The notes under the pieces were generated by a model. The model worked only from the letters and a program-made list of their open reading frames with translations. It did not search any database and had not been told where the DNA came from. From assembly GCA_018268255.1 (NCBI GenBank), contig JAFDWX010000001.1:62001-126000 (forward strand): a DNA stretch of 64,000 bases, read 5' to 3'. The first letter of the stretch is position 1. Each line of letters opens with the position of its first letter. Origin of the DNA: Armatimonadota bacterium (GTDB lineage: Bacteria; Armatimonadota; Fimbriimonadia; Fimbriimonadales; Fimbriimonadaceae). This document shows, piece after piece, positions 14,115 to 20,686 of the stretch. A program made the translations under genes and the position numbers.

Positions 14115-16055
14115 ATGATGAGTCTTTCGACAATCCTGCCCTATTTCCTTCTCGCCAGCGGACAACAGTGGTTCGGCCCCGTGGAAGTTCAACTCCCGAT
14201 TTCGACCTCGGGAAATCCGTTTGATTATGAAAATACAGATGTTCGAGTCCGCCTAACAAGTTCAAAAGCGAACTATGAACGACTCGCATTCACCTCTCAC
14301 GGAGCCTGGAAAGCTAGGCTTGCTGTTCCGGTGGCCGGGACCTACAAAGCTGAAATTCTACTAAATGGCAAGGTTGTCGGCAAGCTGCCTCAGCCCATCG
14401 AATTCACCAAGAAATACAGTCGGGGACTAGTCATAAGAGACAAGAAGGTCTTTTACGACGGGAACAGCCAAGAGTTTTGGCCAGTAGGTCACAACTTGGC
14501 GTGGGTCGATAAGGATCAGAAGGACTACGTGACCAAGTTCGCCAATATGGGCAAGGCGGGGATCAATTGGACGCGCGTTTGGGCAACGCACTGGAACGAC
14601 AGAAATCCTTATTGGGTGATGAGCTTTCCACAGCCCAAGCCCGACGAAATGAGCGAAGATGCTCTTGATCGCTGGGACCAGGTGTTCCGCGAAGCGGAGA
14701 AGAATGGAATTCACGTCCAATTAGTGCTATTCCACCATGGCCAGTTCAGTTCAACGGTCAACCCCAATTGGCCGGATCACCCTTGGAACGCCAAGAAGGG
14801 CGGCTGGCTTCAATCCGCTTCCGAGTTTTTCACCGATCCCAAGGCAAAGAAGCTGACCAAGCAGTGGCTGCGTTACGCAGCGGCGCGATGGGGGTGCTCA
14901 CCGGGATTGATGAGTTGGGAGTTGTTCAACGAAGTGCAGTTCGTCGATCTCGCGAGTGAGCCCGGAGGATGGGCGACGATCGGCAAATGGCACGACGAGA
15001 TGGCGGATTTTATTCGCTCTGTGGATTCGTATCACCGCCTCATAACGACCAGCAGCGAGCTGGATGCTCCGATCTGGAACAAGATGGATTACATCCAAGG
15101 CCACGGATACCCTTCGAGCATCGAGGGTCTGCTGATGGGCACAAAACCCGATGCTAATAAGCCCCTGTTCTATGGTGAGATTGGTCTGAACCGGGGTGTG
15201 CAGGGTATTGAGGAAGAACGGCTGATTCGAGATGGAATATGGGCCGCTTTCTTCGCTGGGCATGCTGGCGCAGGACAGTACTGGTATTGGGACCATCTGG
15301 ACAGAGCGTCTGCGATGGCTGAGTACAAAAAGAACATCAATCTGATCGCCGAGCTCAAATCGCCCAGTGCCTTTAAATCCGAACCCATTAAGGCAACTGT
15401 GGCACGTGGAGGAATTTTGAAATTCACGCCGGGGCGAAGCTGGGCCAAGACGGACAAAACCGAGTTCAATCTGCCCGCAGAGAGCGGAGCAGAGTTCTCG
15501 GGGCAGGTTTCCTCGTTCCTGCAGGGGCCAGGGAAGCCCGAAATGCAAGCGGGACCTTTTGTATTCAGATTCAAAGCGTCCAAACCGGGCAAATTCACGT
15601 TGCGTGCAGCTCAGGTGTCCAGAGCGGGCGCCGATATCGAAATCAGAGTGAACGGAAAGGTCGCTACGAGCCGAACCTATCCCGGTGGAGAGGGCGACCA
15701 GCCCGCTCCAGGGAATATCGTGGCGAATTACCCAGCCGGTCAAGTTGAACTTAAGGTGATCAACAAAGGCCCAGATTGGTTGAATGTGTCGGGCTACGAG
15801 TTTGAGGGCTTGGGTGCGGCCGCGTCGGTCGTGGCTTCCCGAGCCAAAAACATGCTCGTTCTCAGGATCAAGTCAGGAAAGGTCGGCGAGCGTGTGGAGC
15901 TAGCCACAATTCTGAAGACACCAGGCCGACGCCGCGTGCTGGTCACCGACCTTGAGACTGGTAAGCGAACCGTTGAGATGATTTCCGTGCCTGTAGGAAA
16001 ACTAGTCTGGAAGACTCGCTCCACGGATGAGCTACTGATGTTTCCGCTGAGTTAG
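14115..16055 (+). CDS. DUF5060 / GH5-like clan A glycoside hydrolase
   Basis: 646 residues. A weak N-terminal signal-like stretch (LSTILPYFLLASGQQWF) precedes a DUF5060-type beta domain (about residues 20-95). A TIM barrel follows with the clan A signatures: acid/base Glu near 273 in SWELFNEVQF and nucleophile Glu near 355 in LFYGEIGL. The C-terminal ~240 residues are beta-rich and may bind carbohydrate (FVFRFKASKPGKFTLRA). The neighbourhood with a beta-mannosidase-like GH2 suggests action on a beta-mannan or similar hemicellulose, but the substrate is not readable. Two adjacent ATGs (14115 and 14118) are possible starts. The gene end overlaps the convergent TetR gene by 4 nt. Confidence 0.85.
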   Translation: MMSLSTILPYFLLASGQQWFGPVEVQLPISTSGNPFDYENTDVRVRLTSSKANYERLAFTSHGAWKARLAVPVAGTYKAEILLNGKVVGKLPQPIEFTKKYSRGLVIRDKKVFYDGNSQEFWPVGHNLAWVDKDQKDYVTKFANMGKAGINWTRVWATHWNDRNPYWVMSFPQPKPDEMSEDALDRWDQVFREAEKNGIHVQLVLFHHGQFSSTVNPNWPDHPWNAKKGGWLQSASEFFTDPKAKKLTKQWLRYAAARWGCSPGLMSWELFNEVQFVDLASEPGGWATIGKWHDEMADFIRSVDSYHRLITTSSELDAPIWNKMDYIQGHGYPSSIEGLLMGTKPDANKPLFYGEIGLNRGVQGIEEERLIRDGIWAAFFAGHAGAGQYWYWDHLDRASAMAEYKKNINLIAELKSPSAFKSEPIKATVARGGILKFTPGRSWAKTDKTEFNLPAESGAEFSGQVSSFLQGPGKPEMQAGPFVFRFKASKPGKFTLRAAQVSRAGADIEIRVNGKVATSRTYPGGEGDQPAPGNIVANYPAGQVELKVINKGPDWLNVSGYEFEGLGAAASVVASRAKNMLVLRIKSGKVGERVELATILKTPGRRRVLVTDLETGKRTVEMISVPVGKLVWKTRSTDELLMFPLS

Positions 16056-16630
16056 TGATCGTTTGGCTCTGAAACCATTTGGCTGACGAGCTGATCGATC
16101 TTGAACGACGTGTCTTCTTGATTCTGGAACAGCTGTGCCATCATGCCTAATCCCAGCATGGTGGCGCAGAACGTATATGGATCGTTAAACGGATCGTTGG
16201 TGATGCGCGTCGCATAACCTGCGAGATTTTTGGATTCCCCGAATCGCGAAGCCCAGACCTGGCTGAACCTCTTCAACTTGTTCCGAATATCTTCGTTGGT
16301 TTGCGAGGCCACAAACAGCGAGGCCCAAACCCGAAAGAATCGACTGCTGGGTCGGCAATAAGCCTCAAAAAGCGCCACCTCAGCTTGGAGCCGAGTTACA
16401 GGGTTATCTGCCCGAGCCAGGATCTTGTCGCGATCTGCCAGATACCTTTCCTCGGAGTAATCCACCAAGGCCGAAAGAAGATCGTTTCTCGTCGGGAAGT
16501 AGTAGTGGACCGTAGCGTGGTTGATCTGCAGCGCCTGGGCGATGGCTCGGGCGTGGAGACCTTCCAACCCTTCTCGCCCCACGATCTCGTAGGCGCATTG
16601 CAATAGCTCAGTCCTTCTATCCATTTCCAT
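16052..16630 (-). CDS. TetR-family transcriptional regulator
   Basis: 192 residues from the ATG at 16630. The N-terminal helix-turn-helix is typical of TetR: RTELLQCAYEIVGREGLEGL, then IAQALQINHATVHYYFPTRN. The C-terminal ligand domain is helical and diverged, so no effector can be named. The upstream in-frame extension to a TTG at 16675 is less likely. It ends convergently with the GH5-like gene. Confidence 0.88.
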   Translation of the reverse strand: MEMDRRTELLQCAYEIVGREGLEGLHARAIAQALQINHATVHYYFPTRNDLLSALVDYSEERYLADRDKILARADNPVTRLQAEVALFEAYCRPSSRFFRVWASLFVASQTNEDIRNKLKRFSQVWASRFGESKNLAGYATRITNDPFNDPYTFCATMLGLGMMAQLFQNQEDTSFKIDQLVSQMVSEPNDH

Positions 16631-16770
16631 CAGGCATACCCACTGGGCCGCCCACACTTTGAGTATTGGCGGCAACCCTCTTGATTTTAAGCTGAATTCA
16701 GTTCAAATGAACGACTCCGTGCTGGAACACAGGACAAATCCGCTTTCCGACACCTTGGCGATCTTTGAGC

Positions 16771-16782: not shown

Positions 16783-17502
16783 GTGCACAGTTCCACGATC
16801 ACTTACGTCGGAATCGACCTTGCCTGGTCCGCTCACAACGAGACTGGAATCGCGATTTGGGGCGATCAGTTGGATGTGGAGGTCGGAGTGTTCAGTGTTC
16901 CGGAGATCGTTGATCGACTTCTCAGCTTGGATGGCCGAGTGGTTGCGGCGATCGATGCTCCGCTCATCTCGGAACCAGGCCGCATGGCTGAACGCGAACT
17001 CCAACGCGTATATGGAAAGCACAAGGCGTCTTGTCATTGCGGTTCGTGCGAACTACTCGTCAGTACGGGCCGGGATGCAGGAATGCGACTGGGAGTGGCT
17101 CTCCAAGAGGCGGGTTTCAGCCTCGATCCGGTGAAACCCAGCGACAAGTGGGCGTTGGAGGTGTATCCCCACGCGGCCATGGTTGCGATGTGGAACCTGC
17201 CTTATCGGCTTGAGTACAAAGCCAAGCCGCGTCGGACCAGGGAGACCAGGACCTCGGCCTTCCGGCGCCTGCAAGAATTGCTCAAAGGCGATTTGGGTGG
17301 TGTTGATTGCGGCGAGCGTAATTGGCTGGATGTGGATCTCGAACCTCTCCGTGGGAAGGCACTCAAGCGACTGGAAGATGGACTCGACGCGATTACCTGC
17401 GCAGTAGTCGCGCGGAAGGCGCATCCGGACAGGCTAGACGTGTTCGGGAATGTTGAAACCGGCTACATTGTGGTGCCCAAGCGGGAGGAGAATTCGAACT
17501 AA
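16783..17502 (+). CDS. DUF429-family protein
   Basis: 239 residues starting at a GTG. The N-terminus YVGIDLAWS, a central AAIDAPL and a Cys-rich patch (SCHCGSCELLVSTGRDAG), and the C-terminal DGLDAITCAVVARKA match the DUF429 (predicted RNase H-like fold) family. The acidic residues in VGIDLAW, AIDAPL and GLDAI could form a metal site, as in RNase H-like proteins, but no activity is proven. The end of this gene, with its downstream intergenic region, is partly repeated at 19327-19479, and its last ~50 codons are repeated at 19957-20107. Confidence 0.85.
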   Translation: MHSSTITYVGIDLAWSAHNETGIAIWGDQLDVEVGVFSVPEIVDRLLSLDGRVVAAIDAPLISEPGRMAERELQRVYGKHKASCHCGSCELLVSTGRDAGMRLGVALQEAGFSLDPVKPSDKWALEVYPHAAMVAMWNLPYRLEYKAKPRRTRETRTSAFRRLQELLKGDLGGVDCGERNWLDVDLEPLRGKALKRLEDGLDAITCAVVARKAHPDRLDVFGNVETGYIVVPKREENSN

Positions 17503-17619
17503 GCCAGTTCATTCAACTGAGTGGTCGCACCTGCGTGTGCGCATTGTTGCAGAAACAGGCTAAAAACCTTGTCAGTCCAAGCCAGTCGTGTTAGTATGGA
17601 GCGATGGCAAGGACGAAGG
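17466..17619 (+). repeat. Direct repeat A: DUF429 tail + promoter + six codons
   Basis: 154-bp segment holding the last 12 codons of the DUF429 gene, its stop, the intergenic region with promoter, and the ATG plus codons for MARTKA of the next gene. It is matched at 19327-19479 with only about ten differences, including two short indels. Confidence 0.9.
17569..17597 (+). promoter_or_regulatory. Sigma-70-type leaderless promoter
   Basis: TTGTCA (17569-17574), a 17-nt spacer and TAGTAT (17592-17597), followed by GGAGCG and the ATG at 17604. Predicted transcription start coincides with the start codon. Confidence 0.65.
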
Positions 17620-19268
17620 CAATTCTAGCGGTCATTTGCGTTGTTACTGCAATCTTCATACTGCTGGCTCCCAAGGCAGCACGCGCCACGACCCTGTATG
17701 TCACTCGGCGCGGTTCAACAGCCAGCACCGGGAGTTCTTGGGGAACGGCAATGTCAAGTGTTCAATCGGCGATCAATTCGGCCGTATCGGGCGATTCCAT
17801 CTGGGTACAGGAGGGCAACTACTTCGAACAGCTTGTGCTCAAAGATGGGGTTACGATTATTGGAGGCTTCTACGGCAACGAATTCACGTCGCTAAACAAC
17901 TGGTCTGAATTTCCGACGAGTATTTTCGGGCGAATTACAGCTAACTGCCAAAACCTTGGTTTCACCCTCAGCAGACTGAAAATAGTTGGCACGCAGGCAA
18001 ATGGAACTGGCGGCGGTGGCGCAATGAACCTCTCCGGCAAGGGAACGCTCGTCTCCTGCACCATTTCTGGCGGCGCAGGTGATTTGAGTGTCAATGGCAT
18101 CGGAGGCGGCGCGTACGTTAATCTCAACTCATCGATCAACTTTCTTAGATGCAGGTTCATGGCATGCGCGGCCGTGTCCTATTCCCTAATCGGTGCAGCC
18201 GAAGGCGGAGCGCTATTCCTGACTTCCGGAACCAACCGCGTGGAGTCCTGCATCTTTGATCACTGTGCCGCTGAAAACCTCTATCAAGGAATTGGTCCCG
18301 CATACGGGGGTGCTATCGCGATCCGCGAATCACTTGCGACTTCGTCAAATGTGATCATCGGAAACACCTTTGTTGAAAATTTCAGCACATCAGAGGGCGA
18401 TGCCATCTCAGTAATGCCGGTTGGCACGGCTAACGTTCCTACCACGATATTGCTGAACGCTTTTGACCAAATCTCGAACGGATACGCTGGTCCTACCGGT
18501 GTAATTCACTCTGGAATGTCGAATACTACCTTGGCACTCAATCGATGGAGTCCAGCTATCCCGATCCCTACAACAGGACCTTTCAATAGTAGCAATAACG
18601 GAATTGCGATATTTGACTTCGGAAATTCCCTCAGGCAGGATTATCATCTCGGACCCGGATCACAGGCATTTAACGTCGCTTCCAATTCTAGTGCTCAACG
18701 AGATATTGACAGCGAGCCTCGAACTATGGCGGGAGGCACCGACTGTGGCGCAGACGAAAATGCATATGGGTTGCAAGCGCACGCACTGCTTTCTATTTGC
18801 CCTCTCAATCTGGATGGCGCTCCCGGATTTGCAAATAGGTGGGTGGAGTTGGACTTTGTCAAGAACCACGTCGTAGTTCAAACACTTCACTCCGCGTTCG
18901 ACTCGGCAGGTTGTTTGGACCTAACGGTGCCGCCAAGCTCCAACCTTGCCACTGCAACAGAGTTAATTATTCGAACCCCAAGGTTTCTTGCGAAGAAGGT
19001 CCCCCTCAATTGGAGTGTAACAACGGCAATGAAGATATCGCCCTACCTTGTGGGAGGCGATTTCGATCAGGATAACGATGTCACAGTCTTTGATTACCTA
19101 AGCCTGTCGAGCAACTTCTTTTGGGGCTGGACCGACCTTGAATGGTGGGAACCCGACGCATTTGGGGTGACTCCGCGAAACTGTGATGTGGATGACGACG
19201 GTTTTGTCACCATTTTCGACTATGCGGCTTTGTCGAACAATTTTGGAATTCCTGGCGATGTCCCCTAG
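17604..19268 (+). CDS. Secreted right-handed beta-helix protein with dockerin-like C-terminus
   Basis: 554 residues with a signal peptide (MARTKAILAVICVVTAIFIL, cleavage near ARA-TTLYV). The body shows parallel beta-helix features of the choice-of-anchor/polymorphic outer-membrane protein kind (VQSAINSAVSGDSIWVQEGN, VTIIGGF, GGGAMNLSGKG, GGALFLTSG, GGAIAI). A beta-rich segment then leads to two EF-hand-like loops, DFDQDNDVTVFDY and DVDDDGFVTIFDY, in the last 71 residues (19053 to stop), the same tail as three other window proteins. No catalytic residues are evident; adhesion or glycan binding is plausible. The whole gene is flanked by direct repeats A and A', and its promoter looks leaderless. 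Confidence 0.85.
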   Translation: MARTKAILAVICVVTAIFILLAPKAARATTLYVTRRGSTASTGSSWGTAMSSVQSAINSAVSGDSIWVQEGNYFEQLVLKDGVTIIGGFYGNEFTSLNNWSEFPTSIFGRITANCQNLGFTLSRLKIVGTQANGTGGGGAMNLSGKGTLVSCTISGGAGDLSVNGIGGGAYVNLNSSINFLRCRFMACAAVSYSLIGAAEGGALFLTSGTNRVESCIFDHCAAENLYQGIGPAYGGAIAIRESLATSSNVIIGNTFVENFSTSEGDAISVMPVGTANVPTTILLNAFDQISNGYAGPTGVIHSGMSNTTLALNRWSPAIPIPTTGPFNSSNNGIAIFDFGNSLRQDYHLGPGSQAFNVASNSSAQRDIDSEPRTMAGGTDCGADENAYGLQAHALLSICPLNLDGAPGFANRWVELDFVKNHVVVQTLHSAFDSAGCLDLTVPPSSNLATATELIIRTPRFLAKKVPLNWSVTTAMKISPYLVGGDFDQDNDVTVFDYLSLSSNFFWGWTDLEWWEPDAFGVTPRNCDVDDDGFVTIFDYAALSNNFGIPGDVP

Positions 19269-19326
19269 ACCTAGGTGTAGCAGACCGCCGAACAATCGAC
19301 CTGACCGTGAATGGTGAATGCGGCCA

Positions 19327-19479
19327 CATTGTGGTCCCCAAGCGGGAGGAGAATTCGAACTAATTCAGTTCATTCAACTGAGTGGCCGCAAGCGTGTGCG
19401 CATTGTTGTGAAACAGGCTAAAAACCTTGTCAGTCCAAGTCAGTCGTGTTAGTATGGAGCGATGGCAAGGACGAAGGCA
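19327..19479 (+). repeat. Direct repeat A' (copy of 17466-17619)
   Basis: Near-identical copy of repeat A. It includes the end of a DUF429-like frame and its stop, the intergenic region, a promoter, and the ATG with the next five codons. Homology stops after the sixth codon (GCA). Confidence 0.9.
19427..19455 (+). promoter_or_regulatory. Duplicated leaderless promoter
   Basis: TTGTCA (19427-19432), 17-nt spacer, TAGTAT (19450-19455), then 6 nt to the ATG at 19462. Identical hexamers and spacing to the promoter at 17569-17597. Confidence 0.55.
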
Positions 19480-19596
19480 GTCCTATTGCGCGACCAAATG
19501 GCCCTTGTAAAACCGTTAAGCACTCCTGGTCGACGAATGCAACTCTCATGGCACCGCCTCCTGGACTCCCCAAAAGATTTGGCTCCGGAGTCGTGA
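19462..19596 (+). pseudogene. Chimeric short ORF driven by the copied promoter
   Basis: 44 codons. The first six encode MARTKA, copied from the start of the beta-helix protein gene; the following frame is unrelated to it and stops at TGA 19594. It lacks the hydrophobic core of the signal peptide present in the first copy. It is most likely a by-product of the duplication joining a promoter and start codon to foreign sequence. Whether the short peptide is made is unknown. Confidence 0.45.
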
Positions 19597-19613: not shown

Positions 19614-19943
19614 ATGAACTCTGGCCTGCGCAACTGGATCTCCACGGTGTGGACCCCGCCGTCAACGAGTCCGATCGATGAATTTGGGCTTCTTGAAGCC
19701 CTGTCCCGCGCAGATGACGTCTGGAGTGAAGATGAGAAAGTAGCAGTCTTAGGAATGGCCGCGGGTAGTTGGCTACTACTGCGGTATGAGGATGTTGGCC
19801 AACTTTTAAAGAGTGATTGGCCGTTAGGTTCATTTGCGATCTGGGTCTTGGATGGACATGCCGTGAACAGGTTTCCACAACACAAAGACGTTATCGAAGA
19901 GATACGCGGATTACTGCTCGCCGCTCTACCAGAAGCCAAATAG
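19614..19943 (+). CDS. Hypothetical protein
   Basis: 109 residues from the ATG at 19614; the frame is open back to 19446, but that part runs through repeat A'. The sequence has a reasonable protein-like composition (VWSEDEKVAVLGMAAGSWLL, then LRYEDVGQLLKSDW) but I recognise no family. A GTG at 19593 is an alternative start. It lies between repeat A' and the DUF429 tail remnant, so it may be a passenger of the rearrangement or the surviving end of a longer gene. Confidence 0.4.
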   Translation: MNSGLRNWISTVWTPPSTSPIDEFGLLEALSRADDVWSEDEKVAVLGMAAGSWLLLRYEDVGQLLKSDWPLGSFAIWVLDGHAVNRFPQHKDVIEEIRGLLLAALPEAK

Positions 19944-19956
19944 GCTGGGTGAAAAC

Positions 19957-20137
19957 CGCTCCGCTACGTGGGAAGGCACTCAAGCGACTGGAAGATGGAC
20001 TCGACGCGATTACCTGTGCAGTTGTCGCGCGGAAGGCCAATCAGAGCACGTTTGACGTGTTCGGGAATGTTGAAAGCGGCTATATTGTGGTGCCCAAGCG
20101 CGAAGAGCTAGGGCCTTGCCGGGACGAACCTATTTGA
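19957..20137 (+). pseudogene. DUF429 3'-end remnant
   Basis: From about 19957 to 20107 the sequence is nearly identical to the last ~50 codons of the DUF429 gene at 16783-17502: LRGKALKRLEDGLDAITCAV and YIVVPKRE are unchanged. Many of the few differences are silent. The N-terminal three quarters is missing, and the frame reads through to 20137 over the end of the opposite-strand lipoprotein gene. It is a truncated duplicate with no credible start codon. Confidence 0.75.
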
Positions 20138-20686
20138 GTTCACGTCAAGCTCGTAGTGAGTCGTGCTTGAATCCGTGATCTTGAATGCTACTTGCCCTTT
20201 CTTGTCCGTGTAAAACTCTGGCACCGAGAGGTGCATCGTGGCCTTTCCGATGGTGTCCAGTGTTATCTGATAACCCGATTTTGTCTTCGAGTAAACATGG
20301 ACACCGTAGTTGCGTCCCGTGGCACCGAGAGAATCACAAACAATGAATCCGGATGCCTTGGATAGGCCTCGATCGCCATAGGGAAAAATGAGGACGCAGT
20401 ACTGTGGAGACCTTTCTGCCGAGTACAGAATCTCCTCGTTCCCCCAAGCTACAAAAGACGTGATCGAGACAAATTGACGCTCCTCGGCATCCGCAATCAA
20501 GGTGAATGTATCCATTGAAAATGGATTCTGTTGCCGCGACAGGAAACGAAGCGGCTGACTCACAGAGTCGATCTGAACGCAAGGCTTAGTCGTTTGGGAA
20601 GGAGTTGCCAACTCATGGGTAGGCGTGTTTTTGCACCCGTAGCAAAAAAACAGTCCCAGGATCAGGATCAGCGAGGTTCTCACCAC
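20108..20686 (-). CDS. Putative lipoprotein of unknown function
   Basis: 192 residues from a GTG start. The N-terminus MVRTSLILILGLFFCYGCKN is a lipoprotein-like signal peptide with a cysteine after YG. The rest is beta-rich with no recognised domain (FTLIADAEERQFVSITSFVA, GRNYGVHVYSKTKSGY). It ends exactly where homology to the DUF429 tail stops on the other strand, so its 3' end may have been set by that rearrangement. A strong terminator separates it from the beta-helix gene upstream. Confidence 0.65.
   Translation of the reverse strand: MVRTSLILILGLFFCYGCKNTPTHELATPSQTTKPCVQIDSVSQPLRFLSRQQNPFSMDTFTLIADAEERQFVSITSFVAWGNEEILYSAERSPQYCVLIFPYGDRGLSKASGFIVCDSLGATGRNYGVHVYSKTKSGYQITLDTIGKATMHLSVPEFYTDKKGQVAFKITDSSTTHYELDVNSNRFVPARP

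Follow-up and report, generated by a model that had tools for sequence, protein, structure and literature searches.

Gene content and direct repeats of the DUF429 locus

The locus lies in the window (the whole stretch of 64,000 nucleotides analysed here) within contig C1 of a 3.19-Mb genome, the single genome of its species covered here, and its features are listed in Table 1. The DUF429 product matched PF04250 with 72.5 bits, against a cut-off of 23, over positions 1-209 of the 214 of the profile, and it thus belongs to DUF429, a predicted RNase H-like family (PMC3985635). Between this gene and the divergent TetR-family gene we noticed a perfect palindrome, GTTCAAATGAAC (16701-16712), which is a candidate TetR operator and the sole occurrence of GTTCANNTGAAC in the window. 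Further downstream, three copies of the DUF429 end bracket the beta-helix gene and an orphan frame, X; one of the copies carries, in addition, the following gene's promoter and start.

Table 1. Features of the locus, in window coordinates.
Feature	Position	Strand	Basis
TetR-family regulator, divergent from DUF429	16052..16627	-	PF00440, E 5.6e-7
Full-length DUF429 gene (RNase H-like fold predicted)	16783..17502	+	PF04250, E 5.4e-20, residues 10-222
DUF429 tail segment T, matching the third copy	17344..17490	+	alignment; identical run 17350-17399
Repeat A: DUF429 tail, stop, intergenic stretch, promoter, first 8 beta-helix codons	17437..17627	+	alignment
Promoter-like TTGTCA-17-TAGTAT in A	17569..17597	+	sequence; ends 6 nt before ATG
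Probable secreted beta-helix-like protein, dockerin-like C-terminus	17604..19268	+	Dockerin_1; signal peptide by inspection
Repeat A'	19298..19485	+	alignment
Promoter-like TTGTCA-17-TAGTAT, copy in A'	19427..19455	+	sequence; 70-base block 17552-17621 with one change
44-codon frame, start MARTKAVL	19462..19596	+	open reading frame; no family match
Orphan frame X (109 aa with the ATG start; open back to GTG 19446)	19614..19943	+	no relative found
Displaced DUF429 tail T'', in frame, stop-free	19961..20107	+	89% to 17344-17490
Convergent lipoprotein-like frame, stop abutting T''	20108..20686	-	open reading frame; no family match

The direct repeats A and A' had been noted in a preliminary description of this DNA, and they are real: local alignment (blastn) gave 89.5% identity over 191 columns with E 7e-66, and the resemblance is not due to chance. 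Both repeats run past the ends given earlier (17466-17619 and 19327-19479); within 17466-17619 we counted exactly 10 differing columns, in agreement with the "about ten" of the description. The content ascribed to both copies, that is the DUF429 tail and its stop (TAA), the TTGTCA-17-TAGTAT promoter and an ATG followed by codons for MARTKA, was found in each, and the first eight codons are close (MARTKAIL in A, MARTKAVL in A'). The beta-helix frame does open within A, and the frame that begins in A' ends after 44 codons, as claimed. A' starts 29 bp past the beta-helix stop and ends eight codons into the gene copy. In a sample of 13 stretches (260 kb) elsewhere in the same genome, together with the remaining window, we detected only three further pairs of direct repeats spaced within 10 kb, each 77-78% identical. 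An assembly artefact is an unlikely source of A and A', given the roughly 10% difference between them.

Several minor features accompany the repeats. The inverted repeat CAGTT-N5-AACTG is present at 17505-17519 in A and at 19366-19380 in A', its sole two occurrences in the window, and the 11-mer AATTCAGTTCA is common to A' and the TetR/DUF429 intergenic region. The predicted RNA structure of the intergenic part of A was no more stable than that of shuffled sequences (z 0.15). Another direct repeat of the same genome (L077, 3473-3812 and 4031-4363; about 340 bp, 78% identity) adjoins what appears, by inspection, to be a cytochrome c biogenesis (CcmF-like) gene.

The beta-helix gene, its promoter and the frames behind A'

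The beta-helix frame encodes 554 aa, and its Dockerin_1 match (E 6.8e-4) is slightly under the curated cut-off. Among proteins of the genome and the genus, many have in common a dockerin-like C-terminal region (about 75-100 residues), which is a candidate tag for sorting or anchoring. The residues MARTKAIL begin a plausible signal peptide, so that A' resembles a truncated beta-helix start.

In leaderless genes the -10 box adjoins the start codon (PMC3160421; PMC12340547), with its consensus about 12 bp before the start (PMC3160421). Here, in both copies, TAGTAT begins 12 bp and ends 6 nt before the ATG, which agrees with the leaderless arrangement when the distance is counted from the first T. 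Among 232 sampled gene starts the motif TANNNT was likewise enriched 6-9 nt before the ATG (27 at these four positions vs about 2.6 per position elsewhere), an enrichment that is approximate, the starts having been set by a simple longest-frame rule. As TAGTAT ends so close to the ATG, the mRNA is probably leaderless, and transcription of the beta-helix gene from A plausibly begins at the ATG itself.

The differences between A and A' are unevenly spread, with about 17 differing columns in the 115 of 17437-17551 vs a single one in the 70 of 17552-17621. Fisher's test, computed with 16 upstream changes, gave p 0.003 for this contrast; allowing for the choice of interval, it became 0.014, or 0.033 when gaps were counted as events. 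Accordingly, the promoter/start block is either young, the product of conversion, or maintained by selection. In a DNA search the block had just two copies in its own genome, and no convincing match in 40 relatives.

Behind A' we found frame X, which was absent from the preliminary description and which codes for 165 aa from GTG 19446 or for 109 aa from its ATG, 17 nt past the end of the 44-codon frame and in a different register from it. The 165-aa form had no family in Pfam and the 109-aa form none in NCBIfam or PHROGs, and searches of plasmids, viral contigs and 290 further genomes from the phylum found no relatives of X. Single-sequence fold prediction was uninformative (pLDDT 50). The codon score of 0.08 is at the 5.7th percentile of coding sequences and close to the median for out-of-frame stretches that are open, hence ambiguous, so A' may drive nothing. 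Alternatively, A' may drive X via the 44-codon leader frame, in which case an unrelated orphan may owe its expression to the copied promoter.

Recombination between A and A'

The preliminary description proposed that recombination between A and A' would delete the beta-helix gene and place the downstream sequence under the same promoter, either as a swap of expressed cassettes or with the present arrangement as the scar of a past one. The deletion itself holds, since a crossover would remove 1,858 bp with the gene. The proposed gain of a promoter fails: because the same promoter and start are present in A' before any crossover, the deletion yields no new pairing of promoter and cassette, only the irreversible loss of the beta-helix gene, and with it the swap falls. 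Recombination between the repeats thus gives no alternative expressed states of the kind expected for a phase-variable switch. The exact runs shared by A and A' (39, 30 and 27 bp) could support RecA-dependent deletion; nevertheless, a programmed or frequent switch, in which this deletion changes the expressed cassette, is highly improbable, given that the deletion is one-way, the downstream frame already has its promoter copy and the two repeats are now about 10% divergent. Neither an inverted arrangement nor a silent donor cassette is present at the locus, and the four matches to PF00589, the Pfam profile searched for phage-integrase-type recombinases in the genome, are all off contig C1. On the strength of the promoter already in A' and the lack of such a match on the contig, the cassette switch was rejected. 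A switch is unnecessary to explain the repeats, for which the explanation is ordinary; we put the probability that the locus is a scar and not a switch at about 0.9.

The third tail copy and the history of the locus

The main addition to the preliminary description, which missed it, is a third copy of the DUF429 C-terminal tail: segment T recurs as T'' with 89% identity (blastn, E 1.4e-49). T and T'' share an identical run of 50 bases, which is lacking from T', the tail within A', and T'' stops short of the DUF429 stop codon. Tail copies are confined to this locus within the genome, three and not two, and they enclose two modules, the beta-helix/dockerin-like gene and frame X. Joining the outer tails via the 50-base run restored an uninterrupted full-length DUF429 frame with the T'' ending, although any in-frame tail copy would yield the same result. 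The corresponding crossover would restore DUF429 at the cost of 2,617 bp and, like that between A and A', would not be reversible. Since the join rebuilds the full frame, an insertion or duplication affecting the DUF429 3' end is the most likely history of the locus, and the three tails lend support to the scar that had been offered as the alternative to a swap.

Over 49 codons, T'' differs from T by eight silent and six replacement changes, and five of the six replacements are in one contiguous loop. Outside the loop, which was left out post hoc and whose five replacement codons are neighbours and not independent, 8/9 changes were at third codon positions (p 0.001 vs one third; p 0.011 vs a mixed model in which T'' decays like a pseudogene). 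With all 16 changes pooled the third-position bias was weak (p 0.05), and thus T'' may be a fossil copy. The replacements in T'' were located in variable columns of the DUF429 family (p 0.045, a value that is optimistic because the five loop codons adjoin one another), with no such pattern for T' (p 0.71). Taken together, this favours, without proof, divergence of T'' inside a working DUF429 gene.

The repeats could also have come from tandem duplication, in one lineage and with no foreign DNA, of a unit from the DUF429 tail to the beta-helix gene, with most of the second copy deleted and T'' as an earlier remnant. Direct repeats flanking a gene, a truncated second copy and degenerate remnants are indeed like the scars of tandem duplication and partial deletion in bacteria, and the limits of A' are those expected for a deletion-truncated duplicate; the changes in T' showed no codon bias, in line with such an origin. 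However, the third tail, with its mostly silent divergence outside one loop, is unlike these scars, T'' requires separate breakpoints because it ends before the DUF429 stop, and no remains of a second beta-helix body were detected behind A' in a DNA search. We regard this account of the whole locus as possible but doubtful.

Genomic islands may insert at the 3' ends of genes, displacing the original end. Here, similarly, the gene end is restored upstream, and the other end is left downstream as an imperfect in-frame duplication at the far side (T'', 89%, open frame). In a site-specific version of this event, a small element would have inserted at the DUF429 3' end and supplied a replacement end, with T and T'' as its left and right junctions; the displaced, mostly silently diverged end beyond the cargo fits, and the 50-base run near the upstream edge might be a crossover core. 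Unlike in such islands, however, the 2.6-kb insert has a tiny cargo (the beta-helix gene, the 44-codon frame and X) with no integrase, the four phage-integrase matches (Pfam) of the genome all lie on other contigs, and the intermediate T' is without the putative core. Moreover, DUF429 genes have been described as unlikely to be mobile (PMC3985635). Site-specific insertion is therefore improbable. Our search of the literature on 3'-end insertion and duplication scars gave no specific match.

The best explanation for the locus is that at least two past, non-programmed rearrangements occurred at the DUF429 3' end. In the first, DNA with a diverged DUF429 end would have recombined with, or been inserted at, the conserved stretch 17350-17399, by which DUF429 would have gained a new tail and its former tail would have been stranded as T''. 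In the second, the segment of repeat A, with the new tail, intergenic stretch, promoter and eight codons, would have been copied behind the beta-helix gene, either by a tandem duplication from which the second beta-helix body was lost or through templated copying of a short tract. Today, A would direct leaderless transcription of the beta-helix gene, and X may be expressed from A'. For a scar whose first step was insertion of, or recombination with, diverged DNA, the odds are close to even; as to the separate copies, T'' is slightly better explained by an insertion that displaced a gene end, and A' by duplication followed by truncation. The locus is a readable case of a gene end copied together with a probably leaderless promoter. 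A more far-reaching idea, that the DUF429 3' end is a recurrent insertion hot spot where incoming genes bring a replacement end and a portable leaderless promoter, is very unlikely; if true, each new module would be expressed at once and the older modules pushed downstream.

A comparison with related genomes, as proposed in the preliminary description, was run, and no relative carrying the repeat or an intermediate state was found. The order and mechanism of events remain inferred, because close relatives are lacking. The only relative seen with the divergent TetR/DUF429 pair was a genome of the same genus (G001), the nearest of those compared, which shares just this pair: its DUF429 protein is 38% identical, and different genes follow downstream.
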